IMG/VR virus record: IMGVR_UViG_3300034190_001393
Coordinates: 1-22,737 of that record
DNA length: 22,737 nt
Source: a virus
Direction: 5' to 3' (one strand)
This document shows, one piece after another, positions 3,342 through 20,222 of the stretch. Each line of letters starts with the position of its first letter. The stretch's first letter is position 1. The notes beneath the pieces are model-generated. The model was not told the DNA's origin. It did no database searches and was given only the letters and a program-made list of their open reading frames with translations. A program made the translations under genes and the position numbers.

Positions 3342-3614
3342 TCACCTAACAGAGTTTGCGGCTTGCATCTTATCTACTGCATCTCGTATTGCCTTAATGT
3401 TTTCATCAATGCGACCGAGCATAACAGCTTGTAGTTGTGCTGTCTTTTCTATTTCATTAATACGTATTTCATGTCTTGCTATTTCACGAGCATTGACAGT
3501 TACGTTACTATCTAAATTAGACATATACCATACAAGACCCACAGTCTGTAATACTATAGCTAATACAAAAGTAGCTGGCACTGATTTAGATAAATGCCAT
3601 TGTTGTTTTTCCAT
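3342..3614 (-). CDS. Membrane-anchored coiled-coil protein, lysis candidate
   Basis: This 90-aa protein has an N-terminal transmembrane helix (residues about 12-31, VPATFVLAIVLQTVGLVWYM) followed by a helical, heptad-like region to the end. The tail contains LGRIDENIKAIRDAVDKM, a pattern I have seen in small phage proteins called holin-like or hemolysin XhlA-like. One N-terminal membrane anchor plus a periplasmic coiled coil also matches inner-membrane spanins. A very strong ribosome binding site, GGGGGAGG, precedes ATG 3614. It is followed by the 157-aa membrane protein and the exported small protein, consistent with a lysis cassette, although no endolysin is visible in the window. Confidence 0.55.
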   Translation of the reverse strand: MEKQQWHLSKSVPATFVLAIVLQTVGLVWYMSNLDSNVTVNAREIARHEIRINEIEKTAQLQAVMLGRIDENIKAIRDAVDKMQAANSVR

Positions 3615-3643
3615 AATAACCTCCCCCGATATCTGGGTGTAAG

Positions 3644-3666
3644 GCAGAGTCCTATAAGAACTCTGC
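3644..3666 (-). terminator. Hairpin after the portal gene
   Basis: The 7-bp perfect inverted repeat GCAGAGT/ACTCTGC with a 9-nt loop lies 9 bp past the portal stop codon and about 30 bp before the next start. There is no U-run after it in the minus direction, so it is a weak terminator at best and may instead set transcript stability or processing. The minus-strand loop contains CTTATAGGA, a partial resemblance to the promoter-like motif described elsewhere in this window, but the CTCTAAG half is missing. Confidence 0.4.
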
Positions 3667-3674
3667 TAATTAAC

Positions 3675-5882
3675 TTACTGTTGAGGCATTACCCCAGCTT
3701 GCCCCATTCCCATCGCAGGTTGTTGAGGTGGACTTTCTTCTAACATTGATCTTGCAACTTGTACAATTTCACTAAAGTCAGGTCTTACAGGAGATTCTGC
3801 TCCTTCCTTCTTAGCCTTTATCTCAAGCTCTGCCCAAGTTTGAAAGTGTTTATCTATTGAAATAGCTAACTGTTTAGCATTATCGTCAGATGTATTCTTT
3901 GATTGAGCGTTTGTATATGAAACATTAGCTTCTGCAAGAGATGCATCTGCTTCTAGTTTACGTTGAGATAATTGACTATCTCGTTGAGCTTTTTGAGTTT
4001 GTTGTTGTACAGCTTTTACAGCTTTTTCTTTAAACTCTTGTGTAGTATAGTCTTCTAAGAAATCTTGACTGTCAATTCCCATAGCTTCTATAAGTTTAGT
4101 TGCAAGCAGAGCAGGTGCTTCTGGCTTTACAATAATACCTTGACCTTGACTATTTAATCCTGGCAGAATTTTACTACCTACCATTTCAAGTTTTTTAATT
4201 GCATTTTGATTTGAGTTCTCACCAATATCTAAGAATACTTCTACATCCATTCTTGGAGGAAGTTTCATTGTATCAATATCAGAAAACACACCTTGATAAC
4301 TAAACTTAGAATGAGACTTTAAACATTTACGCATTGTTCTGTAAACGCCAATACACAATCTTTTCATTCCCGTTTCTGCGAAACGTCTAGCTATGTGCTG
4401 TATACGTTTCTGAGAAGCAGATTGAACTGCAGCTAATTTTTGTTCACTGTTACCTGAAACATATAAAGAATCATTAAGACCCTGTGCAGCTTTAGACATA
4501 CCAGTAGCTTGTTCTTTTATTGTTTGTAAATGAGACAACAAAGGAACTGTACCTGTGCTAATAGTTTCAGGTGGAAGTGTAGACACTGCACCATTAGGAT
4601 TACCATTAGTAGGTATAATTTGTTTTGGCTTCATGTTCTGAAGTGCAGAGAAATCAACAACATTAGGATCAGCAAGCTTTGGTGAGTAGTTTGTTAAGTA
4701 TGTATTTTCAACAAACCCTCTTAAGATTGCAGTAGATGCAAGTGTTGAAGATCTTGTAAAGTCTGCTATAGACAATCCATAAAACTCATACGGAATATCA
4801 ATAGGGGATAGACAAGCTATAGGAACCATATCCACATCTTGCTCATACAGGATTGTTTCACCTGCTACAATAATATGCTTTAGTTCTGCAACTCCATCAC
4901 CATCCCTATCTACATTAATCCAACATTCGGTAATAGTAACTTCACGATTGGCCTCTAGTAATGTAACGTCTTGAGACATCCTACCTTGCATGTAGCTCTG
5001 ACCTGTAACCATTTTTCTTGCAGCAATATCTTCTGCAAAGTTTGAGTTACCATCCCATGTGCCATCATCGCCAAGCTCATCCCACTCTTCTTCTGCAATA
5101 CCATCAGCAATCTCAGGCCACATCTTACGAATCTCAGAACGAGTTAGTAAGGATTGTATACCTACAAAGTTTGCATCATCTATTGACTTAGCATCACGAG
5201 AAATTCTAAAAGCTTCAGGTGGAATGTTTTCTATTTTAACACGAGAGTTATCATTCTTACGCCTAATACGAACATTAACATAGACCAGTTTAGCAGATTG
5301 CTCTCCTGTTTCCATATTTAAATCACCTAGATCATTTTCATATTCTAGGTTGCCAATGATCTCAACTCCTTCTTCAGCAAGGAGGTTATCTAATTGACCT
5401 TGAGAAATTCTGTCGTACTCTTCAAATTCGTAGTCAAACCCTTCTTCATAATCCCAACGAATAATACCATTCTTCCAAAGTAATGCACTTTTAATCCAAG
5501 TTTGAATTAATTCCCATCCATTATTTTGTTTAAAGATAGCGTAGTTAGTAATCATTGAGGCATCTCTCGCATGTTGGAAAGATCCTGGGGAACTATCATA
5601 AGGTACAAACCTAGCTAACTTCCCATTGTTTAGAAACAAATCTGATAGTATTGCAGTATAAGCTTCTATTGTTTCTGTAGTAGAAGTATCTACAATACTA
5701 GATACGCCTTGAGGTGCTAGATGATCTTCAGCTACCCCTGCAAATTCATATGTAGAACGCTGTCGTTCTCTTGTAAGATCAGACGAGTTTAACCATTCAC
5801 CAGTAGACGATTGAATACCAGTTTCTATAAGATTAATTAAACTTTCGTCAGATACTTTTTCTTTGTATCCACTACCTTTCAT
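3675..5882 (-). CDS. Portal protein (P22-like head-tail connector)
   Basis: This 735-aa protein is close to the size of the P22 portal (725 aa). Portals form the dodecameric ring at the head vertex through which DNA is packaged and ejected and on which terminase docks. Recognisable features are the N-terminal segment with STTETIEAYTAILSDLF and FVPYDSSPGS, an alpha/beta core with ITECWINVDRDGDGVAEL, the wing-to-stem segment LSPIDIPYEFYGLSIADFTR (about residue 370), and a long Gln/Lys-rich helix near residues 620-670 that suits the C-terminal barrel of long portals. The protein ends Gln-rich (MPQQ). It lies downstream of the large terminase and upstream of the scaffold and capsid genes, the canonical order. 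Its ATG overlaps the upstream 48-aa gene stop (TAATG). Confidence 0.85.
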   Translation of the reverse strand: MKGSGYKEKVSDESLINLIETGIQSSTGEWLNSSDLTRERQRSTYEFAGVAEDHLAPQGVSSIVDTSTTETIEAYTAILSDLFLNNGKLARFVPYDSSPGSFQHARDASMITNYAIFKQNNGWELIQTWIKSALLWKNGIIRWDYEEGFDYEFEEYDRISQGQLDNLLAEEGVEIIGNLEYENDLGDLNMETGEQSAKLVYVNVRIRRKNDNSRVKIENIPPEAFRISRDAKSIDDANFVGIQSLLTRSEIRKMWPEIADGIAEEEWDELGDDGTWDGNSNFAEDIAARKMVTGQSYMQGRMSQDVTLLEANREVTITECWINVDRDGDGVAELKHIIVAGETILYEQDVDMVPIACLSPIDIPYEFYGLSIADFTRSSTLASTAILRGFVENTYLTNYSPKLADPNVVDFSALQNMKPKQIIPTNGNPNGAVSTLPPETISTGTVPLLSHLQTIKEQATGMSKAAQGLNDSLYVSGNSEQKLAAVQSASQKRIQHIARRFAETGMKRLCIGVYRTMRKCLKSHSKFSYQGVFSDIDTMKLPPRMDVEVFLDIGENSNQNAIKKLEMVGSKILPGLNSQGQGIIVKPEAPALLATKLIEAMGIDSQDFLEDYTTQEFKEKAVKAVQQQTQKAQRDSQLSQRKLEADASLAEANVSYTNAQSKNTSDDNAKQLAISIDKHFQTWAELEIKAKKEGAESPVRPDFSEIVQVARSMLEESPPQQPAMGMGQAGVMPQQ

Positions 5883-6074: not shown

Positions 6075-6386
6075 TCATTTCTTTTTAACTAAGTTTGAAA
6101 CTCCCATAAATACAGAAACAACACCAGCAACAGATACAAAATATATGGAAGCCATACTTCCTATAATTTCTGATGCTTGATGTAATCCAAGGAATCCTGT
6201 TACGACAACTCCAGAAGGATAGAGAAGCATACCCCATAGAGCAAACCAAGCCATTTTTCTGATCTGATCTCTATGAGCATCTTCATCTTCAATCCTTCTG
6301 CGCTTATCATCAAGTAACAAGGCATCCCATTCTTCCTGATCTATGTGACCACTACTGTCTTTATCTACATCAGGAAAACTATTCAT
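6075..6386 (-). CDS. EF-hand protein with two transmembrane helices, holin-like topology
   Basis: This 103-aa protein starts with a canonical EF-hand calcium-binding loop: D8, D10, S12, G13, I15, D16 and E19 in DKDSSGHIDQEE fit the DxDxSGxIDxxE consensus. A charged helix follows (residues 21-44), then two hydrophobic membrane helices at about 45-67 and 75-97 and a KKK end. Two membrane spans with a charged end are typical of small phage holins, and this gene sits upstream of the portal near other membrane proteins. The visible facts are the EF-hand and the membrane spans; a calcium-responsive holin is inference. Other possibilities are a membrane protein altering the host envelope or an unrelated accessory protein. 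I see no second EF-hand. Confidence 0.65.
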   Translation of the reverse strand: MNSFPDVDKDSSGHIDQEEWDALLLDDKRRRIEDEDAHRDQIRKMAWFALWGMLLYPSGVVVTGFLGLHQASEIIGSMASIYFVSVAGVVSVFMGVSNLVKKK

Positions 6387-8588: not shown

Positions 8589-8610
8589 CCCCCCTATAAA
8601 TCTCTTAGAG
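8589..8610 (-). promoter_or_regulatory. Second leftward promoter-like motif
   Basis: The minus strand reads CTCTAAGAGATTTATAGGGG, with more G residues after it. It matches the other copies in CTCTAAG, in the five-base spacing and in TATAGGG, but differs in the spacer (AGATT instead of TCCCT). It points toward the large terminase, about 140 bp upstream of the 8447-8467 copy. Conservation of both ends with a changed middle supports a bipartite recognition site rather than a simple duplication. Confidence 0.45.
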
Positions 8611-8775
8611 GCTCTCTCAGTGATCTAATCAGCATAGGTACTGTGGGACTCCCTGAGACTCTTTAGGGATCTGAGAGGATCTCTAAGGAAGTCTTAAGGG
8701 GTGTGATCACATAGAACCTAGCGAGAGTAGTGGTGTACTGTAAGATTCTGTAAGAGGTACTGTGGGGATCACATT

Positions 8776-8797
8776 CTCTAAGTTCCTTATAGGGAGA
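8776..8797 (+). promoter_or_regulatory. Rightward T7-like promoter motif for early genes
   Basis: The plus strand reads CTCTAAGTTCCTTATAG then GGAGA, one mismatch from the leftward copies in the 17-bp block. The TATAGGGAGA end is identical to the initiation region of the T7 promoter consensus. It faces the plus-strand genes, the first of which starts at 8988, giving a leader of about 195 nt that contains the hairpin at 8922-8947. Confidence 0.55.
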
Positions 8798-8921
8798 GTC
8801 CCTTCCAGCCCTACCCTTAAGTTCTCTATATGTATAGTACATCTTATAGGAATCAAGTAAGATCAGATAGCTATAGTAGAACCTGTCAGGGTAGACACCA
8901 ACTTAGGTTCTTACTGTTTAG

Positions 8922-9286: not shown

Positions 9287-9361
9287 AATAAATTAAACTA
9301 GCAAGGGCAATTAAGGTTGCCTTTCGTAGTCTAATTTAACAACTCTTGAAAGGAGTAAACA
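9287..9361 (+). repeat. Intergenic module, copy A
   Basis: This is the first of three closely similar modules of about 75 bp that fill the gaps between successive small genes. Each starts AATAAATT(A/G)AACTA, contains a hairpin built on GGCAA/TTGCC (here GGGCAA, loop, TTGCC), continues with TAGTCTAATTTAACAACTC and ends in the ribosome binding site TTGAAAGGAGTA before the next ATG. It acts at least as the translation initiation region of the gene at 9362; the conserved hairpin suggests RNA processing or stability control. Confidence 0.7.
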
Positions 9362-10789: not shown

Positions 10790-10823
10790 AGATCTTTTAG
10801 GGGTTCGACCACAGGGGCCGAAC
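10790..10823 (+). repeat. Palindrome and hairpin upstream of the SSB gene
   Basis: Two elements lie in a row. The first is the self-complementary AAAAGATCTTTT. The second is a hairpin with GTTCG (10803-10807) pairing with CGAAC (10819-10823) around ACCACAGGGGC. The sequence TTCGACCACAGGGG recurs at 15859-15872 and in altered form at 11510-11523. There is no T-run after the second hairpin, so RNA processing or a protein-binding site is more likely than termination. Confidence 0.45.
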
Positions 10824-10867
10824 TTCTAAAGAATAATTAATCTAAATCCATATAAAGGAATATAACT

Positions 10868-11362
10868 ATGGAATTCACTCCACGTAACTTTCTAATCAAA
10901 GACATCTCTTATAACTACAGTCGGTTAACTACACCTCACGATCAGTTCAACACTGGTACTAGAGTACTTGAAATTCAAGGTGAATGCTCTAAAGATCAGA
11001 TGGCTTACTTTGTAGAGAACCACGTACCATTTAAAGAAAAAGATGGTAAATGTATTGTCTCTCTAAAACGTAAGGAATTTCGTTCTAATGGTGACCCAAA
11101 CGGACCAGTTAGAGTTGTCGATGGTAAGAATCAACCTCTAGACCCTTCCATAATTGGTAATGGATCTAAAGGTAATGCTATAGTTTACCAAATGGAATAC
11201 AACACCGCTGGACGTAAAGGGATCTTCAACTCTCTTACAGCTGTTCAAATCACTGATCTGGTTGAATACACTGGTGGTGCTAACGATATGGAATTTGATA
11301 TCGTTGGTGGTGGTACTGTTACTCCTAGCAATTCTGCAAGTAACGATGCCGATTTGTTTTAA
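10868..11362 (+). CDS. Single-stranded DNA-binding protein, T7 gp2.5-like
   Basis: This 164-aa protein has the size and end expected for a phage SSB of the T7 gp2.5 type: a beta-rich OB-fold core (for example QPLDPSIIGNGSKGNAIVYQ, then FNSLTAVQITDLVEY) followed by a flexible acidic tail ending NDADLF. In gp2.5 the acidic tail with a terminal Phe contacts the polymerase and helicase, and the same end is visible here. It would coat single-stranded DNA during replication and recombination. The gene has its own leader (hairpins at 10790-10823, ribosome binding site AAAGGAATATAACT before ATG 10868) and a strong terminator downstream at 11408-11449, so it may be a separate, highly expressed transcript. 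The polymerase and primase-helicase partners lie further right. Confidence 0.8.
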   Translation: MEFTPRNFLIKDISYNYSRLTTPHDQFNTGTRVLEIQGECSKDQMAYFVENHVPFKEKDGKCIVSLKRKEFRSNGDPNGPVRVVDGKNQPLDPSIIGNGSKGNAIVYQMEYNTAGRKGIFNSLTAVQITDLVEYTGGANDMEFDIVGGGTVTPSNSASNDADLF

Positions 11363-11407
11363 TACTATAAGATCTGAGCATATCTATAAACTGCTCATGT
11401 AATTAAA

Positions 11408-11449
11408 TCCTAGGAGAACTCGAAGGTTCTCTTAGGATCTATTTTTTTT
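11408..11449 (+). terminator. Strong intrinsic terminator after the SSB gene
   Basis: TCCTAGGAGAAC (11408-11419) pairs with GTTCTCTTAGGA (11426-11437), 12 bp with one G-U pair and a 6-nt loop, followed by TCTA and then eight T residues (11442-11449). This is a textbook Rho-independent terminator on the plus strand. It is also the first of a run of hairpins that continues to 11621. Confidence 0.82.
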
Positions 11450-11458
11450 AAGAAAGGA

Positions 11459-11621
11459 ATCCCCAAGGGGATACTATTTTTCAAAAGTCCTCAAGGGGAC
11501 TTTTAGAAATTCGCCCACGGGGGACGAATTTAAGAAGATTGCATCCTTCGGATACATCTATATTTTAAAAAGTTCCCTATCGGAAACTTTAAGAAGATGA
11601 AAAATCTCTTAGAGATTTTTC
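11459..11621 (+). ncRNA. Array of six tandem hairpins, possible structured RNA
   Basis: Immediately after the SSB terminator come six more inverted repeats with little spare sequence: ATCCCC/GGGGAT (11459-11472), AAAAGTCC/GGACTTTT (11483-11504), AAATTCG/CGAATTT with inner CCC/GGG (11507-11531), ATCC/GGAT with outer TG/CA (11540-11556), AAAGTT/AACTTT with inner CC/GG (11569-11590), and GAAAAATCTC/GAGATTTTTC with a 3-nt loop (11599-11621). Short purine-rich linkers, AAGAAGAT twice, separate them. No ORF fits. This may be a non-coding RNA, an RNA stability element, an origin region, or a binding array. The 412-bp gap between genes (11363-11774) is otherwise filled by the terminator, one copy of the 16-bp repeat and a possible micro-ORF. 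Confidence 0.5.
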
Positions 11622-11637
11622 AAAATAACTGGTGAGG

Positions 11638-11653
11638 ACCGACAAAGCGCACT
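11638..11653 (+). repeat. 16-bp direct repeat, copy 1
   Basis: ACCGACAAAGCGCACT lies 16 bp after the last hairpin of the tandem array. Two identical copies in the same orientation are at 15369-15384 and 15402-15417. The sequence is more GC-rich than its surroundings and contains the palindrome GCGC. Confidence 0.7.
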
Positions 11654-11675: not shown

Positions 11676-11747
11676 ATTTTATCATTTACAATTTACTTAG
11701 CTATGGCAATATATGTGCTCATAGCTGTTATACTTAAAAAACCTTAA
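11676..11747 (+). CDS. Possible 23-aa membrane peptide with ATT start
   Basis: An open frame reads LSFTIYLAMAIYVLIAVILK and then KP before TAA, a perfect small transmembrane helix with a positive end. The only ATG (11703) gives just 14 residues and has no ribosome binding site. However, ATT at 11676 lies eight bases after AGAGG, so a rare ATT start is conceivable. The frame is open back to 11613 without another start codon. It may be translated or may be chance; the hydrophobic run followed by KKP is the only support. Confidence 0.25.
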   Translation: MLSFTIYLAMAIYVLIAVILKKP

Positions 11748-11774: not shown

Positions 11775-11987
11775 ATGACAACAGTAAATCCAATCGGAAG
11801 ACATAACTTACAATTCAGACGTACAACAAAACGATACGGTAAACCAATAGGATCTTTCTCTAATCATCAAGGATACCTTTCTGTAGCTCGTGACACTGAA
11901 ACAGGACAGTTCGTATCTCGTGCTAAACTATCTGTGGCTACTGTAGATCGTATTCGTAACGTAATCAAACTACGAGGTTTCAACTAA
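11775..11987 (+). CDS. Hypothetical basic 70-aa protein
   Basis: I do not recognise this protein. It is basic and Arg-rich, with predicted short beta strands (SFSNHQGYLSVARDTETGQF) and a C-terminal helix (VATVDRIRNVIKLRGF). The ribosome binding site AGAAAGGC lies before ATG 11775. It starts a chain of overlapping small genes (11775-12585). The basic character could indicate nucleic-acid binding, without direct evidence. Confidence 0.6.
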   Translation: MTTVNPIGRHNLQFRRTTKRYGKPIGSFSNHQGYLSVARDTETGQFVSRAKLSVATVDRIRNVIKLRGFN

Positions 11988-12202
11988 TGGACAAACAAAA
12001 TATCTTCTGGACAGCAGAAGGTGAAGTAGTAATAGAAATAGCAGAACGAGCATTGATACTAAGTCGTAAAGAAGCAGAGGATTTGTTCGTTGATCTTGGT
12101 TTCGTATTAAAAGATATGGCTCACGCAACTGATGTATTAGAAGTTGCAGAAGCTATTGCACTAGACGAAAAGGAAACTCTGGCTGAATTGGCTAATGGGT
12201 GA
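11987..12202 (+). CDS. Hypothetical acidic 71-aa protein
   Basis: This acidic protein is coupled to the previous gene by a TAATG overlap. It begins with a beta-like segment (FWTAEGEVVIEIAERALILS) and continues with two helices containing KEAEDLFVDLGFVLKDMA and VLEVAEAIALDEKETLAELA. There is no membrane segment and no cysteine. I do not recognise a family. Opposite charge to its upstream neighbour (basic) raises the possibility that the two products pair. Confidence 0.58.
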   Translation: MDKQNIFWTAEGEVVIEIAERALILSRKEAEDLFVDLGFVLKDMAHATDVLEVAEAIALDEKETLAELANG

Positions 12203-12431
12203 CATAGTAAACTTTGAAGAACAAAAAAGAGCTATGGAATATCGTAGGATTGCCCAACTCTTCAATGTTATAGTTCACATAGGCACAAATGATGAATACG
12301 AAATTGACATGGAATGCAATGATGAATATGATAATTGGGCAATCTTCAAAGGTATAGAAGTTCTTTACGCTAAGTTCGGAATTGAGCATGGATTTCTTGG
12401 AGCAGATGATGATCAAAAGAAAGATGAATAA
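12195..12431 (+). CDS. Hypothetical acidic 78-aa protein
   Basis: I do not recognise this protein. It overlaps the preceding gene by 8 bp and is rich in Asp and Glu, with IGTNDEYEIDMECNDEYDNW in the middle and an acidic-basic tail, GADDDQKKDE. The N-terminal half has a helix, EEQKRAMEYRRIAQLFNVIV. There is no membrane segment. Its context is a tightly packed block of short early-type genes. Confidence 0.55.
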   Translation: MGDIVNFEEQKRAMEYRRIAQLFNVIVHIGTNDEYEIDMECNDEYDNWAIFKGIEVLYAKFGIEHGFLGADDDQKKDE

Positions 12432-12585
12432 TTTCAGTGTAACTATCACTATATCTAAAACCTTCACGCTTGCAGCTTATGATAAAGAAGCTGCCGTATC
12501 AAAAGCAATTTCTTATGGGATTGACAGAACTTTAAAAGATGCAGAATTCTCTACATCTGTCAAAAAAGTAAACAGCTACGATTAA
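12424..12585 (+). CDS. Hypothetical 53-aa protein
   Basis: The start is placed at ATG 12424, which overlaps the preceding stop by 8 bp; a longer frame from 12382 would lie wholly inside the previous gene. The protein has an N-terminal beta hairpin-like stretch (MNNFSVTITISKTFTLAAYD) and a helix (KEAAVSKAISYGIDRTLKDA), a simple alpha/beta layout seen in many small phage proteins. I do not recognise a family. Confidence 0.5.
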   Translation: MNNFSVTITISKTFTLAAYDKEAAVSKAISYGIDRTLKDAEFSTSVKKVNSYD

Positions 12586-12603
12586 CTTCAGAAAGGACTA
12601 ATC

Positions 12604-13116
12604 ATGCCTAACCATTGTTATCAACAAGTGACGTTAAGTGGTCCTCTAGATCTTATGAGAGAGATACATGAGGAACTCTTCAAGTCATGCAGAGAAGGAT
12701 TTGAACCACAACTTCTTCAACTTATACTACCAATGCCTTTCAGTATGAACAAGTATACTGAAGATGAAAATGGTAACTTCAATGCTGGTTGGTATGATTG
12801 GCGAGTAGAAAACTGGGGTTGCAAATGGGATGTTGCAGATGTAGAAATCCATGACTCTTCGTGGGATGATGATAATAATTTATTACCTTCGTTCATCACA
12901 AGAATACCTCAACACAGTCGAACAGATTATCATGTCAGCTTCAACTGTTGGACTGCTTGGGGTCCACCTATCCACGTATGGGAACACTTACACGAACTTG
13001 GAATCCATGTAGATGCTGACTATCAAGATGAAGGTGGTATGTTTGAGGGTTCATACAGAAATGGTCTACATGATCAATGGGAACCTGATGAAGGTGAAGA
13101 CTACGATGATGAGTGA
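12604..13116 (+). CDS. Api92-like protein with YubB ferredoxin-like domain
   Basis: This 170-aa protein starts MPNHCYQQVTLSG and has the core WYDWRVENWGCKWDV (about residues 63-77), then FNCWTAWGPPIHVWEHL and YQDEGGMFEGSY. This set 'MPN-x-C-x-N/Q-x-V ... WY-x-W-x-x-x-NWG-x-KW-D ... F-x-TAW-x-PP ... Y-x-E-x-G-x-F-x-G' marks the Api92/YubB family, named after the aphid phage APSE protein and plasmid YubB and found on phages and conjugative plasmids. The molecular role is unknown to me; the fold is ferredoxin-like. The C-terminus is very acidic (EPDEGEDYDDE). Ribosome binding site AGAAAGGAC precedes ATG 12604. Confidence 0.75.
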   Translation: MPNHCYQQVTLSGPLDLMREIHEELFKSCREGFEPQLLQLILPMPFSMNKYTEDENGNFNAGWYDWRVENWGCKWDVADVEIHDSSWDDDNNLLPSFITRIPQHSRTDYHVSFNCWTAWGPPIHVWEHLHELGIHVDADYQDEGGMFEGSYRNGLHDQWEPDEGEDYDDE

Positions 13117-13291
13117 TATATTAGAATTAGAACTCTTCAATTATCTAAACGAAATGGAAGAAAGAGGAGATGGACAAGCCACTTACTTATTAAACTTGTG
13201 GCAAATGGATGGACTACCTGAGAGTGTCTTAGATTATATAAACGAAGAGGAACATCTAAAACATTGGAGAAAAGGTTGGAACAGTCAATGA
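13106..13291 (+). CDS. Hypothetical acidic 61-aa protein
   Basis: The start is ATG 13106 (or the adjacent ATG 13109), overlapping the end of the Api92-like gene; a longer frame from 13013 lies inside that gene. The product is a helical acidic protein (LELELFNYLNEMEERGDGQA; VLDYINEEEHLKHWRKGW). AAGGTGAAG upstream can act as ribosome binding site. The stop overlaps the next ATG as ATGA, so it is coupled to the GP88-like gene. I do not recognise a family. Confidence 0.5.
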   Translation: MMSDILELELFNYLNEMEERGDGQATYLLNLWQMDGLPESVLDYINEEEHLKHWRKGWNSQ

Positions 13292-13917
13292 CCCATGCTT
13301 CTGTACACATATCAAAAATGACAGGTAAACTTGAAGGGTTTCGTGCTATCAGTACTAACACTCGTACTAATACGTACTGCCTTGAACAACATGAACGTGC
13401 TGTAGAACACAAAACAGATAACATCTGTGGGGATTGTTACAGTCACACAATGCTCAAAGGCTATCGTAAAAACATGGCTCCAGCCCTTCAACGTAACAGT
13501 GATCTGTTGTCATCTCGTCCTTTGGAACCACAAGAAATCCCCAGGATAAATGATGCAGTATTTCGTTTCTCTGCTCATGGTGAACTCATCAACGATCAAC
13601 ATATGCAGAACCTTATGGCTATCACTGTTGACAATCCTTGGTGTACCTTTGCTTTATGGACTAAACGTGTAGATATTGTATATCGTTGGTTACGTAACAA
13701 TCCTAAACCAGCTAACTTAAATCTTATATACTCTAATCCTAAAAAGTCACACATACTTTCAAAACCACCAAAAGGTTTTGATAAAACATTCAACAATGTA
13801 CTAGCAGATGAGTATATAGACAGACAAAACTGCACTGGTCAAAAATGTCAAGACTGTCGTATCTGCTACACAACTAATGATATAACAACTATTATAGAGA
13901 AGGTTAAGAAATACTAA
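13288..13917 (+). CDS. GP88-like cysteine-rich phage protein
   Basis: ATG 13288 is chosen because it overlaps the upstream stop as ATGA; a TTG at 13264 is the only longer start. The 209-aa product shows Cys31 in NTYC, the motif CGDCY (47-51), then the segment FRFSAHGELINDQHMQNLMA, WCTFALWTKR, and a C-terminal cluster with four cysteines in CTGQKCQDCRIC. This layout matches the phage 'gene product 88' family first named from mycobacteriophages. The two cysteine groups could bind a metal or an iron-sulfur cluster; that is inference. The order of invariant elements (CGDCY, R-F-x-x-x-G-E-x, ALWTK) supports the family call, but no biochemical role is known to me. Confidence 0.68.
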   Translation: MTHASVHISKMTGKLEGFRAISTNTRTNTYCLEQHERAVEHKTDNICGDCYSHTMLKGYRKNMAPALQRNSDLLSSRPLEPQEIPRINDAVFRFSAHGELINDQHMQNLMAITVDNPWCTFALWTKRVDIVYRWLRNNPKPANLNLIYSNPKKSHILSKPPKGFDKTFNNVLADEYIDRQNCTGQKCQDCRICYTTNDITTIIEKVKKY

Positions 13918-14135
13918 TGAAAACTATAATACACGTTAATCAACATAAGATAAAAAGCAACAGCAAAACAGGTTCAAAAGATCCTGTCTTGACTGTAAAA
14001 ACTTACAAATCTAATACTTACACTAACAGAGTAAAAATTGATGGACCATGCACTGTTGTGTATAGTCCTGATAAACCACTATCATGTGGTGCTAAAGTCT
14101 GGATAGAAACACAAGAAAAGGTGACATGCGAATGA
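13917..14135 (+). CDS. Hypothetical 72-aa beta-rich protein
   Basis: This small, basic, Thr/Lys-rich protein looks all-beta: KTIIHVNQHKIKSNSKTG, DPVLTVKTYKSNTYTNRVK, then IDGPCTVVYSPDKPLSCGAK and VWIETQEKV. It is coupled to the GP88-like gene by a TAATG overlap and overlaps the MazG gene by 10 bp. Similar short proteins with 'K-S-N-x-K-T-G ... V-x-x-x-P-x-x-P-L-x-C-G-A-x-V-W' are frequent in marine phages next to nucleotide-metabolism genes; function unknown to me. Confidence 0.6.
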   Translation: MKTIIHVNQHKIKSNSKTGSKDPVLTVKTYKSNTYTNRVKIDGPCTVVYSPDKPLSCGAKVWIETQEKVTCE

Positions 14136-14467
14136 CTATGTATATGAATCAATATCAAACTCAAGCACTAACAACTGCAATCTTTCCAGACGAAGACCCA
14201 ACTGTCGCAATAGCATACCTAAGTCTAGGTCTATGTGGGGAAGCTGGAGAAGTTGCTAATAAAATCAAAAAATGTATTCGTGATGGTAACTCCTATGATG
14301 GTATAGCAGACGAACTTGGAGATGTACTGTGGTATATTGCAGTACTTGCTCATTATCTAGAAGCTGATACAGCTATAAACCTAGATGAAATTGCTGCTAG
14401 AAACTTATACAAACTATCGGAACGAGCGAAGAGAGGAACGCTCCAAGGATCAGGCGATAACCGCTGA
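14126..14467 (+). CDS. mazG: MazG-like nucleotide pyrophosphohydrolase
   Basis: This 113-aa protein is the size of single-domain phage MazG proteins. It has the metal-binding signature of the all-alpha NTP pyrophosphatase fold: E39 and E42 in GLCGEAGEVANKIKK and E63/D66 in ELGDVLWYIA. The family hydrolyses (d)NTPs to monophosphates and pyrophosphate. In marine phages it is a common auxiliary gene, proposed either to recycle host nucleotides or to influence stress signalling. The ribosome binding site AAAAGG lies just before ATG 14126. The chain of overlaps with the neighbours indicates one operon. The substrate cannot be inferred from sequence. Confidence 0.85.
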   Translation: MRMTMYMNQYQTQALTTAIFPDEDPTVAIAYLSLGLCGEAGEVANKIKKCIRDGNSYDGIADELGDVLWYIAVLAHYLEADTAINLDEIAARNLYKLSERAKRGTLQGSGDNR

Positions 14468-14529
14468 TGATGGGCGTCTTGTTTGGACTATGTGTACTAA
14501 TAATAATTCTAGCAGCTAACATAAGATAG
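14467..14529 (+). CDS. 20-aa membrane micro-protein
   Basis: This very short ORF starts with tandem ATG codons overlapping the mazG stop (TGATG) and encodes little more than one hydrophobic helix (MGVLFGLCVLIIILAANIR). Coupled placement and a clean transmembrane profile are the only support. Such one-helix peptides may be membrane effectors or chance ORFs. Confidence 0.4.
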   Translation: MMGVLFGLCVLIIILAANIR

Positions 14530-14537
14530 GATAAACT

Positions 14538-14660
14538 ATGCAAAGTAAAGTAAATATTCTTGAAGTACTAGTAACAGTTATGGAAGAACAAATAGATGAA
14601 CTTTACGAAAGAATTAAATCTATTGAGATCCAACTAAGAAAAGAGAAGACTCATGGCTAA
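14538..14660 (+). CDS. Small 40-aa coiled-coil protein
   Basis: ATG 14538 is preceded by AGGAT and the stop overlaps the next gene by 8 bp. The product is one amphipathic helix with heptad spacing (KVNILEVLVTVMEEQIDELY, then ERIKSIEIQLRKEK), suggesting a short coiled-coil oligomer. I do not recognise it. It fills the gap between the 20-aa micro-protein and the 98-aa gene, with no spare sequence, which supports translation. Confidence 0.5.
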   Translation: MQSKVNILEVLVTVMEEQIDELYERIKSIEIQLRKEKTHG

Positions 14661-14949
14661 AAATCTATTAGGTAAATCAAGATCAACGCAAGACCCATAC
14701 GCTATCTATAAAGGTGATGGTCCATTTGGTCTTACTGAAATGAGACTGCTAAAAACATATCAACTTCCAAAAAACGAATCAACTAATCAATATGCTCGTT
14801 GGTTCGTAGCAGTTAAAACAGATGCAACTTTTGGTAGTTACGAAATGGGTGATAGTTACATCCATGAAGCAACACATGGACTCAAGCTAAACTATGCTAG
14901 TCCAGAGTTTAAAGAACAATATGGTGATACTGTAGGTATCTTGCCATAA
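14653..14949 (+). CDS. Conserved phage protein, 98 aa
   Basis: The protein contains DPYAIYKGDGPFGLTEMRLL, KTYQLPKNE, NQYARWFVAVKTDATFGSYE and MGDSYIHEA. The motif 'L-K-T-Y-Q-x-P-x-x-E ... N-x-Y-A-R-W-F-V-A-V-K-x-x-A-T-x-G-S-x-E-M-G-D' is one I recall from small proteins in many marine podoviruses and siphoviruses, always unnamed. It is globular, without membrane segments, and ends at TAA 14949, just before a structured non-coding stretch. Its wide spread suggests a core phage function, which remains unknown to me. Confidence 0.65.
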   Translation: MAKNLLGKSRSTQDPYAIYKGDGPFGLTEMRLLKTYQLPKNESTNQYARWFVAVKTDATFGSYEMGDSYIHEATHGLKLNYASPEFKEQYGDTVGILP

Positions 14950-14958
14950 CAGACGTGT

Positions 14959-15116
14959 ACCAGTTGTTCTGGTCCTAGTTGGTGGGCAAGATCACCAATG
15001 ATATGAAGCGGCTCACTACCGCAAAAAAATAGCCGATAGAAGTATCTCGCAGATCAAGCTGCGTTAATGTTGGGGGATAATGTGGAGGCAATTTGTTCCT
15101 GAGAAGCACCCCCAAC
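14959..15116 (+). ncRNA. Candidate structured RNA: five consecutive hairpins
   Basis: The gap between genes is filled by perfect inverted repeats: ACCAG/CTGGT (14959-14973), TTGGTG/CACCAA (14979-14998), GCGG/CCGC (15008-15022, or the alternative CGGCT/AGCCG ending at 15035), CGCAG/CTGCG (15048-15063) and GTTGGGGG/CCCCCAAC (15069-15116), the last with a 32-nt loop that can fold further (GGA/TCC). It is more GC-rich than the genes on both sides and has no ORF. I find no tRNA cloverleaf and recognise no known RNA family. The next gene starts at 15143, so it could also act as a leader element. Confidence 0.5.
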
Positions 15117-15142
15117 CTTGATCTAACCATATGGAGATAATT

Positions 15143-15313
15143 ATGATTTCAACATTTCTTACAGCTCTAGTTCATATTGGTATCGGATTAGGTATCAGTG
15201 TAGCAGTTGTCGATATCACTAACACTGTTGTAACTACAGTATCTGAAGAATACTCTAATGCTGTGATTAATGAGACAGTAGATACAGATCTACGTCAACT
15301 AGAAGACGAATAA
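15143..15313 (+). CDS. Small single-pass membrane protein, 56 aa
   Basis: ATG 15143 is preferred because ATGGAGATAATT upstream supplies GGAG at the right distance; the ATG at 15131 would place the start inside that site. The N-terminal half is one hydrophobic helix (FLTALVHIGIGLGISVAVVD). The C-terminal half is polar and acidic (DTDLRQLEDE). I do not recognise a family. It follows the hairpin-rich gap and is convergent with the small-terminase gene, from which it is separated by a terminator and two copies of a direct repeat. Confidence 0.55.
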   Translation: MISTFLTALVHIGIGLGISVAVVDITNTVVTTVSEEYSNAVINETVDTDLRQLEDE

Positions 15314-15324
15314 AAACAAAAAAA

Positions 15325-15355
15325 ACCCCAGAGACTCACACGGAGTCTTTGGGGT
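15325..15355 (-). terminator. Intrinsic terminator for the minus-strand terminase gene
   Basis: ACCCCA-AGACTC pairs with GAGTCT-TGGGGT around ACACG with one mismatch. In the minus direction the hairpin is followed by a run of eight T residues (the A-run at 15318-15325 on the plus strand, which begins at the base of the stem), so it terminates transcripts of the small-terminase gene. For plus-strand transcripts the same hairpin is followed only by CTTATAAT, a weaker signal, but it could act in both directions between the convergent genes. Confidence 0.78.
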
Positions 15356-15368
15356 CTTATAATCTATA

Positions 15369-15384
15369 ACCGACAAAGCGCACT
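15369..15384 (+). repeat. 16-bp direct repeat, copy 2
   Basis: This is an identical copy of ACCGACAAAGCGCACT. It lies between the terminator at 15325-15355 and the small-terminase stop codon, 33 bp (start to start) from copy 3. The extended match with copy 3 includes one more A on the left. Confidence 0.7.
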
Positions 15385-15401
15385 TTCAGGTTTTTTGGTA
15401 A

Positions 15402-15417
15402 ACCGACAAAGCGCACT
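15402..15417 (+). repeat. 16-bp direct repeat, copy 3
   Basis: This is the third identical copy, 20 bp beyond the small-terminase stop codon (15437). Copies 2 and 3 are in tandem in the same orientation. Candidate roles are a packaging (pac) site bound by the small terminase, a replication origin iteron, or a recombination footprint. Confidence 0.7.
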
Positions 15418-15436
15418 GGCAGATTCTTGCAGAATC

Positions 15437-15829
15437 TTACACGATCCGCAAGGCTTTAAGTTTACTGTCAAGCTCTTCATCAGACAAAGCGTCTGTGCCA
15501 AGCTCTTCAATTTGTAATTCTCTGCGTTGAAGTTTGGGTTGCTCGTATTCTGCAACTTTAGCTGCAAGATCACTAGCAGTGTCAAAGTCTTCTTTTTCTA
15601 AAGCTTTAAACATGAGTATCTTCAAGACATCTAAGGAGTTCATATCAACATGATCAAGTACATCTTCCTTATATTTCTTCCAATCTCCCATACTCATCTT
15701 TAAGGCTTGTCTAGCATCACTAGATGCCTTACGAGATGCAGCAGATCTTAATTGCATTTCTTTAGCATTCTCCTTAGTGAATAGGGGAGCTAAATTCTTG
15801 AGACTATTAGGATGTGTTCCTTTGGTCAT
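15437..15829 (-). CDS. terS: Putative terminase small subunit
   Basis: This 130-aa protein has the layout of a small terminase, the subunit that binds the packaging site and loads DNA on the large terminase. It begins THPNSLKNLAPLFTKENAKE, followed by a basic helix (MQLRSAASRKASSDARQALK), a central oligomerisation-like region with DVLKILMFKALEKEDFDTA, and an end resembling many phage small terminases: LAAKVAEYEQPKLQRRELQI, then LSDEELDSKLKALR. It is the only minus-strand gene in the rightward half. A promoter-like motif at 15917-15901 and AGAGGTAATTAAT before ATG 15829 provide expression signals, and a terminator follows at 15355-15325. The large terminase is 7 kb away, which is unusual. Small terminases diverge strongly, so this remains a pattern-based call; a DNA-binding regulator is the alternative. 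Confidence 0.55.
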   Translation of the reverse strand: MTKGTHPNSLKNLAPLFTKENAKEMQLRSAASRKASSDARQALKMSMGDWKKYKEDVLDHVDMNSLDVLKILMFKALEKEDFDTASDLAAKVAEYEQPKLQRRELQIEELGTDALSDEELDSKLKALRIV

Positions 15830-18400: not shown

Positions 18401-20222
18401 TATTGAATGTAATGGTCTAGACCCAGACACTATCTGGATGATTGTTGCACAAAACCTAGACACTAAACAAGTCTACAAGTTCTCTGATCACGATAACCTA
18501 CATGGATCTATTGCTGATGGAGCTGCACTATTGCAGAACGCAGAGCTTCTAGTAGGCCATAACATTATAGGTTTTGACAATGTGGTAGTAGACAAGATAT
18601 GTGGTACTACCCTCAATGAGAAACGCTTACACGATACGTGGGTGATGTCTCAGGTACTTAGGTACAAACGTGGTCATCGTCATGGACTTGCAGGTTGGGG
18701 TGAAAACCTTGGCAACAGTAAGATTACATATGAAGATGGATGGGATGCATACTCAAGAGAAATGCTTCGCTATTGTGTACAAGACGTTAAAGTTAATGTA
18801 GATGTATACTATAAACTACTTGAAGAATACAAACGCATAGCTTCTGTAAATCCTAAAATTAAATTAGGTATGCAAGCAGAACATGAAACAGCTAGGTTCA
18901 ATGCGTTTTGTAAGACTAAGGGCTGGTATTTCAACATGGAGGAAGCTAAAGAACTTCTAGGAACTATGCAACAACGCATGGCTGAAATCTCTAACACTAT
19001 TGAACCCCAGATGGGTACTAAAGTTGTGTTCATAGATAAAGAACCTAAAAGTCCTAAGTACAAAAAGAATGGTACATACACCGCGACAACTGCCAAACTC
19101 CTTAGTGAATATTTTGAAACGGAAGTCTCAGTCGAGGACACACATCTCGCAGGGCCAGAGTTTCGTTTCCAACGAACGACTAAGGAACAAGCTAAACTTG
19201 GATCGCAAGAAGCGGTCAAGGATTGGTTGGGAACAATCGGATGGAAACCCGATGAGTACAACAGAAAGAAAGTAGGTCGTGAGTGGGTAACTACTGGACC
19301 AAAACTAACAACATCATCCCTGAGTAAACTAGGAGAAGTTGGATTGATGGTAGATGAGTACTATGTACTACGCCACAAAGCATCTCTTATGGAAGGATGG
19401 GTAGAAAGAGTGGAGACTTCAGATGATAAACGATTGCATGGCAATATGTGGACTATTGGTACTCCTACCTTCAGAGTTCGTCACGAAGTTATTGCAAACC
19501 TTCCAAGCATTGAAACACCTTGGGGTAAAGAAATTCGTGGCATGTTACAACCTGATCCTGGTTCTGTTATTGTGGGTGCCGATTCTGCTGGTAACCAGTT
19601 ACGTGGCCTTTGTCATTATGTTGGGAACGATGATTTCACTAACGAAGTCCGTTATGGGGATCAGCACCAACGAAATGCTGATGCACTTGGATGCAGTAGG
19701 GCTATCGCCAAAGGTTATTTATACGCTTATCTTTTTGGTGCTGGCGATGCTAAGTTGGGTAAGGTACTTACAGGTAAATCAAACACCGAAATAGGTAGGA
19801 AGTCACGAGCTGACTTTGCTAAAGGCATTAAAGGATTGGAAGAGTTGAAGAAGAAACTCTTAAATATCTGGAACAAAACATCTAACCAACAAGGTGATGG
19901 ATGGTTCCCTGCCCTTGATGGACGCCCTGTATTCTGTGGGTCTGGTCATCAAACCTTGAATTACTTACTACAAGCAGCAGAAGGTGTAACCTGTAAGGCT
20001 GCACTAATGTGGGCTTGGGATAAGATCAAAGAAGAAAAGCTACGTGCTGAACCTCGTTTATTTTACCATGACGAGATGGCATTTCAATCACACCCTGATG
20101 ACGCTGAACGTGTTGGGGAAATTCTTAAAGAATCATTTACCGCTGGACCAGAACTCTTTGGAGTTACTTGTATGGATGGTGGTGATTACGTAATTGGAGA
20201 AAGTTACGCAGATGTTCACTGA
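18381..20222 (+). CDS. Family A DNA polymerase with 3'-5' exonuclease, T7-like
   Basis: This is the phage replicative polymerase, 613 aa against 704 in T7 gp5. The exonuclease domain has Exo I YDIECNGL (D7, E9), Exo II GHNIIGFD (D66) and Exo III YCVQD (Y131, D135). The polymerase domain has motif A GADSAGNQLRGLCHY (D401), motif B SRAIAKGYLYAYLFGAGD (R440, K444, Y448) and motif C FYHDE (H563-E565), corresponding to the metal and nucleotide-binding residues of T7 polymerase. In motif A the Glu that follows the catalytic Asp by five residues (DxSxxELR) is Gln406, a position linked to sugar selection. F452 replaces the usual Tyr of motif B. The start ATG 18381 (or 18384) follows GAAAGGAC. No DnaJ-type insert is present. 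Confidence 0.93.
   Translation: MMRLCYDIECNGLDPDTIWMIVAQNLDTKQVYKFSDHDNLHGSIADGAALLQNAELLVGHNIIGFDNVVVDKICGTTLNEKRLHDTWVMSQVLRYKRGHRHGLAGWGENLGNSKITYEDGWDAYSREMLRYCVQDVKVNVDVYYKLLEEYKRIASVNPKIKLGMQAEHETARFNAFCKTKGWYFNMEEAKELLGTMQQRMAEISNTIEPQMGTKVVFIDKEPKSPKYKKNGTYTATTAKLLSEYFETEVSVEDTHLAGPEFRFQRTTKEQAKLGSQEAVKDWLGTIGWKPDEYNRKKVGREWVTTGPKLTTSSLSKLGEVGLMVDEYYVLRHKASLMEGWVERVETSDDKRLHGNMWTIGTPTFRVRHEVIANLPSIETPWGKEIRGMLQPDPGSVIVGADSAGNQLRGLCHYVGNDDFTNEVRYGDQHQRNADALGCSRAIAKGYLYAYLFGAGDAKLGKVLTGKSNTEIGRKSRADFAKGIKGLEELKKKLLNIWNKTSNQQGDGWFPALDGRPVFCGSGHQTLNYLLQAAEGVTCKAALMWAWDKIKEEKLRAEPRLFYHDEMAFQSHPDDAERVGEILKESFTAGPELFGVTCMDGGDYVIGESYADVH

Follow-up and report, generated by a model that had tools for sequence, protein, structure and literature searches.

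Seven tandem hairpins behind the SSB gene of a virus related to Roseobacter phage CRP-7: a possible serial transcription barrier

Hairpins downstream of the SSB gene

The window, by which we mean the whole stretch of DNA that was analysed, comprises the 22,737 bases of a virus record. The virus is a relative of Roseobacter phage CRP-7 (MK613349), with which it shares 53% identity in the portal protein and 34% in the single-stranded DNA-binding protein (SSB). Its gp2.5-like SSB gene is located at 10868..11362 on the plus strand (PHROG 112, E 2.1e-14), and directly behind it, 3' of the gene, seven inverted repeats follow one another in tandem at 11407-11622, as had been claimed in the original prediction. 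The first hairpin, h1 (11407-11438, plus strand, with its U-tract to 11449), has 13 pairs including one G.U and is followed by U8 (z -5.24), and the second, h2 (11459-11472, plus strand, with its U-tract to 11481), reads AUCCC-CAAG-GGGAU with U5 after a few nucleotides, its fold alone being not significant (z -1.18). With a GC-containing stem, a short loop and a U-tract (U8 and U5, respectively), both look like intrinsic terminators on the plus strand, so that the strong terminator predicted at this position is supported for h1 and also for h2.

The remaining five hairpins were assigned to no strand. They are h3 (11483-11504), a perfect 8-bp hairpin, AAAAGTCC/GGACTTTT; h4 (11507-11531), of the AATTCGCCCAC type with one C.A mismatch, a hairpin similar to which is also found 5' of the SSB gene at ~10803-10824; h5 (11540-11556), which is weak (TGCATCC/GGATACA, 4 bp, a C.A mismatch and 2 bp); h6 (11569-11590), AAAGTTCCC/GGAAACTTT with one C.A mismatch; and h7 (11598-11622), a perfect 11-bp hairpin. 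Two perfect repeats of 8-10 bp had been announced, and h3 and h7 are indeed perfect, but their lengths are 8 and 11 bp. The linker TTTAAGAAGAT has exactly two occurrences, at 11529 and 11588. On the plus strand h3-h7 do not have the form of intrinsic terminators, as few U follow most of the stems and none of the five is listed in the terminator scan; on the minus strand, a loose-consensus scan (15 found vs 7.1 expected) lists h2, h5 and h7 as terminator-like.

The 214-nt segment 11408-11621 folds at -70.7 kcal/mol, compared with -50.6 +/- 4.4 kcal/mol for shuffled sequences (z -4.58), and none of 200 dinucleotide shuffles was as low, as expected from the original prediction. Three other 200-nt stretches of the window score lower still (8601-8800, 15321-15520 and 6121-6320), which places the array fourth in foldability.

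Conservation of the array and selection on pairing

Relatives were gathered from IMG/VR by DNA-pattern and protein scans, and in these the array is found at the same relative position. Clade A (the window, L001, L011, L025, L026, L049, L036, L070 and L072) carries recognisably the same hairpins, while clade B, of which 13 sequences were aligned and further ones exist, has five hairpins at the same relative place with sequences unlike those of clade A. L100, L097, L089 and L173 carry other variants of the array, each with about two to five hairpins. Across arrays the number of hairpins ranges from about 2 to 6, and L088 is without one of them. An h2-type hairpin was present at the corresponding position in every array inspected. 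In L097, two near-identical units of the form GTATCC-N4-GGATAC-TG-U9 stand in series, with a further terminator besides; in L089 two or more hairpins are terminator-like, and these are accompanied by others.

Loops vary more than stems in both clades: variable columns made up 11 of 78 stem and 14 of 22 loop positions in clade B (p 1e-5), and 28 of 124 and 13 of 29, respectively, in clade A (p 0.02). Stems and linkers did not differ significantly (11/78 vs 7/30 in clade B, p 0.26; clade A linkers 17/63, p 0.59). When clade A was aligned with MAFFT, 94.5% of the cells paired, vs 22.7-62.0% when the partners were slid, and the covariation score was above that of all 500 shuffles. When the clade A hairpins were registered by hand (h5 omitted), 10 of 54 pairs varied and 6 of the 54 had compensated changes. 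Three of the compensated pairs in clade A are in h7, whose pair 2 is seen as G-C, A-T and C-G, and h1 has a compensated change from T-A to C-G against L011. The compensatory changes expected in relatives were thus found among the hand-registered pairs, but the count of pairs changed on both sides in the MAFFT alignment (6) is not exceptional, being reached by 100 of 500 column shuffles. Between the clades the hairpins share position and not sequence, which favours structure over sequence as the object of selection. Taken with the constrained stems, the free loops and the partial compensation, this supports the earlier proposal that the array is under selection for structure.

Perfect palindromes with few wobble pairs, the gain and loss of hairpins, as in L088, and the wholesale replacement of sequence between clades could also be produced by neutral turnover, in which template switching during replication creates and perfects palindromes that are tolerated between genes. 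We consider this quite improbable for several reasons. A scan of 1.66 Mb of fetched DNA for stretches of 260 nt with 4 or more strong hairpins, a threshold below which most clade B arrays fall, found 44 such clusters, as against 1 when a 2-mer-block-shuffled copy was scanned, and 33 of the 44 were the array of this locus (13 distinct contigs, several loci being redundant); of the 11 located elsewhere, 9 were in contigs recruited solely via an exact 15-mer match. The order of an h2-type hairpin, further hairpins and a closing element, described below, is preserved across relatives. Furthermore, the block moves as a unit: in L045 the whole block stays together, but gene g70 (the homologue of 11775-11987) is on its other side, and in L097 the block is likewise 3' of g70.

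A variable noncoding block behind the SSB gene

The feature extends beyond the 214-nt segment, with a small stem-loop (SL, 11375-11397) on one side and a conserved element (11639-11653) on the other. SL is on the plus strand and has the form TGAGCA-N11-TGCTCA with a loop ending in AUAAAC; its fold alone is not significant (z -1.28). In the window and two 58-kb relatives, matches to SL are located behind the SSB gene, except for one chance-like match at window position 18875. The form in relatives is AGCA-N-AAAC-TGCT, in which the pair beside AGCA/TGCT may be G-C, C-G or A-T. It follows SSB and precedes several upstream modules, even where the SSB of the phage is no more than ~40% identical. 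A narrow expression, which misses some cases, placed SL at most 260 nt from the SSB match in 31 of the 75 SSB loci that had enough sequence.

In relatives, SSB is followed by SL and by at least one structured stretch; then come a terminator, an h2-type hairpin and a varying count of further hairpins, and finally ACCGACAA with a variable tail. The array is the final part of a variable noncoding block, which ends in the ACCGACAAAGC element. In the window the block is reduced and has no upstream RNA. In L001, a 98% relative, a 125-bp structured element with 23-bp inverted ends (3535-3665) lies just before h1 and is missing at window position 11397; L011, L025, L026 and L049 have a longer version of it with a compensated stem change, and in L025 a tRNA-Tyr (3911-3994) is inserted between this long-stem element and h1. 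Clade B loci (L010, L014, L058 and others) have a conserved RNA of ~200 nt upstream of the array, ACAACAC...GTCAGGG...TTTTT, without an Rfam match, as well as two shorter upstream modules, GTGAGTAG...CTACTCTC and GATACGTAAGGTATC. An outer stem for clade B, AATCGGAG/CTCTGATT, was dropped, as both sides differ in L094 and L095 yet do not pair, and one side is missing from L088.

The Rfam search gave no match in the window at the gathering score, none in the window or L001 at E<=1, and nothing convincing at the locus in 12 further relatives except the tRNA of L025. Two other observations were made in relatives. L173 contains a candidate Type II hammerhead ribozyme at 748-816 (33.9 bits vs a gathering score of 37, E 0.0022), and L187, a distant relative, has a noncoding-looking stretch of ~500 nt behind SSB (~2050-2600) with no Rfam match at E<=1. 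CRP-7, the nearest isolate found, has the same gene layout, with late genes on the minus strand and replication genes on the plus strand, but no array was present behind its SSB gene, and SL, the element and the promoter of the window's type were not found there.

Strand preference of the array and of the upstream RNA

If a plus-strand RNA alone were relevant, G.U pairs would be tolerated and A.C pairs would not. The array departs from this, with 10 G.U and 10 A.C over 45 distinct hairpin forms (8:9 after dropping one form that is part of the upstream RNA, and 1:4 in clade A alone). Hairpins h3-h7 are nearly pure Watson-Crick palindromes, in which pairing is kept while the bases and the loops change. 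In contrast, on the plus strand of the ~200-nt RNA upstream of the clade B array, G.U is seen in 17 pairs and A.C in 1. The structures were fitted for each strand, which favours G.U; the structure fitted to the minus strand has 5 pairs with G.U and 9 with A.C, and since this runs against the bias, it is the stronger sign that the RNA is a plus-strand one. On these small numbers, the clade B upstream stretch is to be read as plus-strand RNA and the array, unlike it, as strand-symmetric.

This difference bears on another reading, in which the SSB transcript is cut to release a noncoding RNA that consists of the array or ends with it, the hairpins binding a protein or protecting the RNA. In relatives the array does come after a series of structured stretches, at least one of which appears to be a plus-strand RNA by its wobble pairs, SL stands behind SSB ahead of several modules, and the distant relatives L187 and L189 carry a different structured-looking stretch in the place of the array. 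However, the array is without strand preference, its loops, which are the usual contact sites, are its fastest-changing part, and the Rfam searches gave no convincing match at the locus other than the tRNA of L025. We therefore regard a noncoding-RNA function of the array as unlikely, although it is the strongest of the alternatives considered.

The closing element and its copies beside a terminase-like gene

The element ACCGACAAAGCGCAC (11639..11653, plus strand) closes the array in relatives, and ACCGACAAAGC is better conserved than anything else observed between the array and the downstream plus-strand genes. The window contains three exact copies of CCGACAAAGCGCACT, at 11639, 15370 and 15403, where 0.16 would be expected with up to 3 mismatches. 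The latter two are on the plus strand, ~33 bp apart, within 15325..15417, 3' of a strong hairpin on that strand. This hairpin (15325-15355) is the next strong one downstream of the array and can form on both strands (z -6.81 on plus and -5.09 on minus), with a U8 tail on the minus strand, which lies behind a small-terminase-like gene, and a weaker U tail on the plus strand. The element pair near 15.4 kb adjoins that gene, and the same arrangement is found in close and distant relatives. The gene itself (15437-15829, minus strand) falls within the early region, is encoded on the opposite strand and has its own promoter-like site; its product is 34% identical to a CRP-7 protein adjoining the CRP-7 large terminase, and it is reversed in L218 (~4000-4170). 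Among loci with at least 900 nt of sequence the element is present in 53 of 70, not every one in an array setting, and its core is strand-biased, with 87 occurrences on the SSB strand vs 14 on the other in 434 kb (redundant loci counted). The flanks of ACCGACAAAGC (GUG/CAC, GAG/CUC, GGUUG/CAACC and others) seem by eye to covary, but the window version folds at the level of chance (z -0.15).

Several roles for ACCGACAAAGC were considered and rejected. The T7-type promoter-like sequence of the group differs from it and occurs on both strands, which argues against a phage promoter, and in distant phages it stands a few bases before a ribosome-binding site, which argues against an ordinary promoter. 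A long antisense site for the small-terminase mRNA is suggested by 15 bases of complementarity in the window, but other relatives share only a 7-8-base core, and the terminase-like gene of L218 is in the opposite orientation. A kissing loop between CCGACA and a leader hairpin with TGTCGG (8931) was seen in the window, but the corresponding leaders of G004 and G001 are without TGTCGG. Two further features were noted nearby and in the leaders: a small membrane-like ORF (11676-11747, 23 aa) with counterparts in relatives, whose start seems by eye to be ATT or ATA after GAGG and not ATG, and near-identical leader repeats, TAGTCTAATTTAACAACTCTTGAAAGGAGTA, at 9327, 9654 and 10117 ahead of early genes.

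TTGTC, a primase site in T7, is contained in the minus reading of the element. It is conceivable that the array acts as DNA, with hairpins in single strands that exclude SSB and load primase or another replication or packaging protein, for which TTGTCGG on the minus strand of the element would be the recognition site. Near-pure Watson-Crick palindromes with equal numbers of G.U and A.C would suit this, as would the recurrence of the element beside the small-terminase-like gene and the fact that its orientation relative to SSB is unchanged in L218, where that gene is inverted. Sites for G4-type single-strand initiation likewise combine several DNA hairpins with a short recognition sequence; they differ from the array, in which hairpin number and sequence vary. 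The U-tracts kept at h1 and h2, the variation in hairpin number from about 2 to 6, and the ease with which a five-base primase site arises by chance all speak against a DNA function, which we consider improbable.

Promoters and RNA polymerase

One T7-like RNA polymerase gene (~770 aa) was found in each of the five longer relatives searched (57-60 kb). A 23-base sequence, ATTCTCTAAGTTCCTTATAGGGA, which ends in TATAGGG, has the look of a T7-type promoter and occurs on both strands. The exact sequence is located at 8773..8795 on the plus strand, reading toward SSB and the array; other sites in the window are at -8470, -6647 and -15920, with 2, 4 and 5 mismatches, respectively, and similar sets are found in G004 and G001. 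It is likely that these sites are T7-type promoters of the phage polymerase. No plus-strand site of the ATTCTCTAAGTTCCTTATAGGGA type was found between the array and the next gene.

The original prediction had also raised the possibility that a virion polymerase, like that of phage N4, uses the hairpins as promoters. Short intergenic hairpins, several of them in tandem, are reminiscent of that phage, and the minus strand of h6 (11575-11596) resembles the phage promoter with 5/21 mismatches, a level (<=5) reached by none of 12 shuffles; in L011 a promoter-like h6 is found at 4000 on the minus strand with 4/21 mismatches. The comparison breaks down on other points, as no promoter-like h6 was found in L036, the stems and loops of the array differ and have no motif in common, and the relatives have a T7-like polymerase gene instead, with T7-type promoter-like sequences elsewhere. 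The N4-type virion polymerase has ~3,500 aa. The longest open frames in two relatives, 1384 and 1427 aa, are too short for it, the window itself being incomplete. N4-like promoters are therefore largely contradicted and very improbable, so that of the interpretation originally offered, selection on structure and the terminator are supported and the N4 promoters are not.

Discussion

Tandem terminators and intergenic hairpins are known kinds of feature in phages. We suggest that the array is largely a bidirectional barrier, made of serial terminators and hairpins, that closes the unit of SSB and noncoding sequence; we put the probability of this reading at roughly 0.45, and it is the least demanding explanation of the array. 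A T7-like phage polymerase that is incompletely stopped by one terminator would be slowed or halted stepwise by successive hairpins, with ordinary terminators first (h1 and h2), followed by hairpins that act both ways by structure only. Most of the inner hairpins are without a proper U-tract and are therefore not textbook terminators, but as they are symmetric, they would also hinder a polymerase arriving from the right, and the lack of strand preference in the array is what would be expected if both strands count. Hairpins remaining on the 3' end might shield the SSB mRNA, and any small RNA upstream, from exonucleases. These three effects of the array, namely polymerase stopping, stopping from both sides and protection of 3' ends, we infer from sequence comparison. 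Since the genes at 11775-15313 are on the same strand and no T7-type promoter was found before them, a tight stop would need a restart, and expression would restart downstream of the ACCGACAAAGC element.

We take the comparison systems for the array to be T7 T-phi, the tandem rrn terminators, the 3' end of T4 gene 32, the N4 promoters and the G4-type single-strand initiation sites. T-phi and the tandem rrn terminators are like h1 and h2 in having a GC-containing stem, a short loop and a U-tract, after a gene and in series; they are unlike the array in that the latter has five further hairpins, mostly without proper U-tracts, which are strand-symmetric and closed by a conserved element. The 3' end of T4 gene 32, which also encodes an SSB, with the stable RNAs C and D in the tRNA cluster, resembles the present locus in its strong 3' hairpin behind SSB, its noncoding RNAs and its tRNA (here in L025), but T4 belongs to another phage class and the array has multiple hairpins.

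A broader and more tentative interpretation, to which we attach less confidence than to the barrier itself, is that the array is the barrier end of a modular noncoding-RNA island in a broad group of marine podophages with T7-type polymerases. SL behind SSB would mark the site of swappable RNA cassettes (~50 to 500 nt, or a tRNA), followed by the strand-symmetric barrier and then by the ACCGACAAAGC boundary element, of which two copies also adjoin the small-terminase gene and which may connect packaging with transcription and replication. The whole block is of more interest than the array alone.

No description of a comparable hairpin array was found in the literature searched, which was not a full search. 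CRP-7 is described in PMC6918029, in the main text of which the words 'hairpin', 'promoter' and 'noncoding' occur 0 times, and PMC12629253 concerns another phage group. A row of seven hairpins, with strand-symmetric ones among them, in a variable noncoding block is thus apparently new in this phage group.

The locus suggests that marine phages have several conserved structured RNAs, with no Rfam match here, which can be sought systematically in the region behind SSB, and it also draws attention to a conserved boundary element. If the proposed barrier is real, the array would represent natural serial terminators for a T7-like polymerase, and would indicate how phages of this kind, with a handful of promoters, insulate their transcription units from one another.
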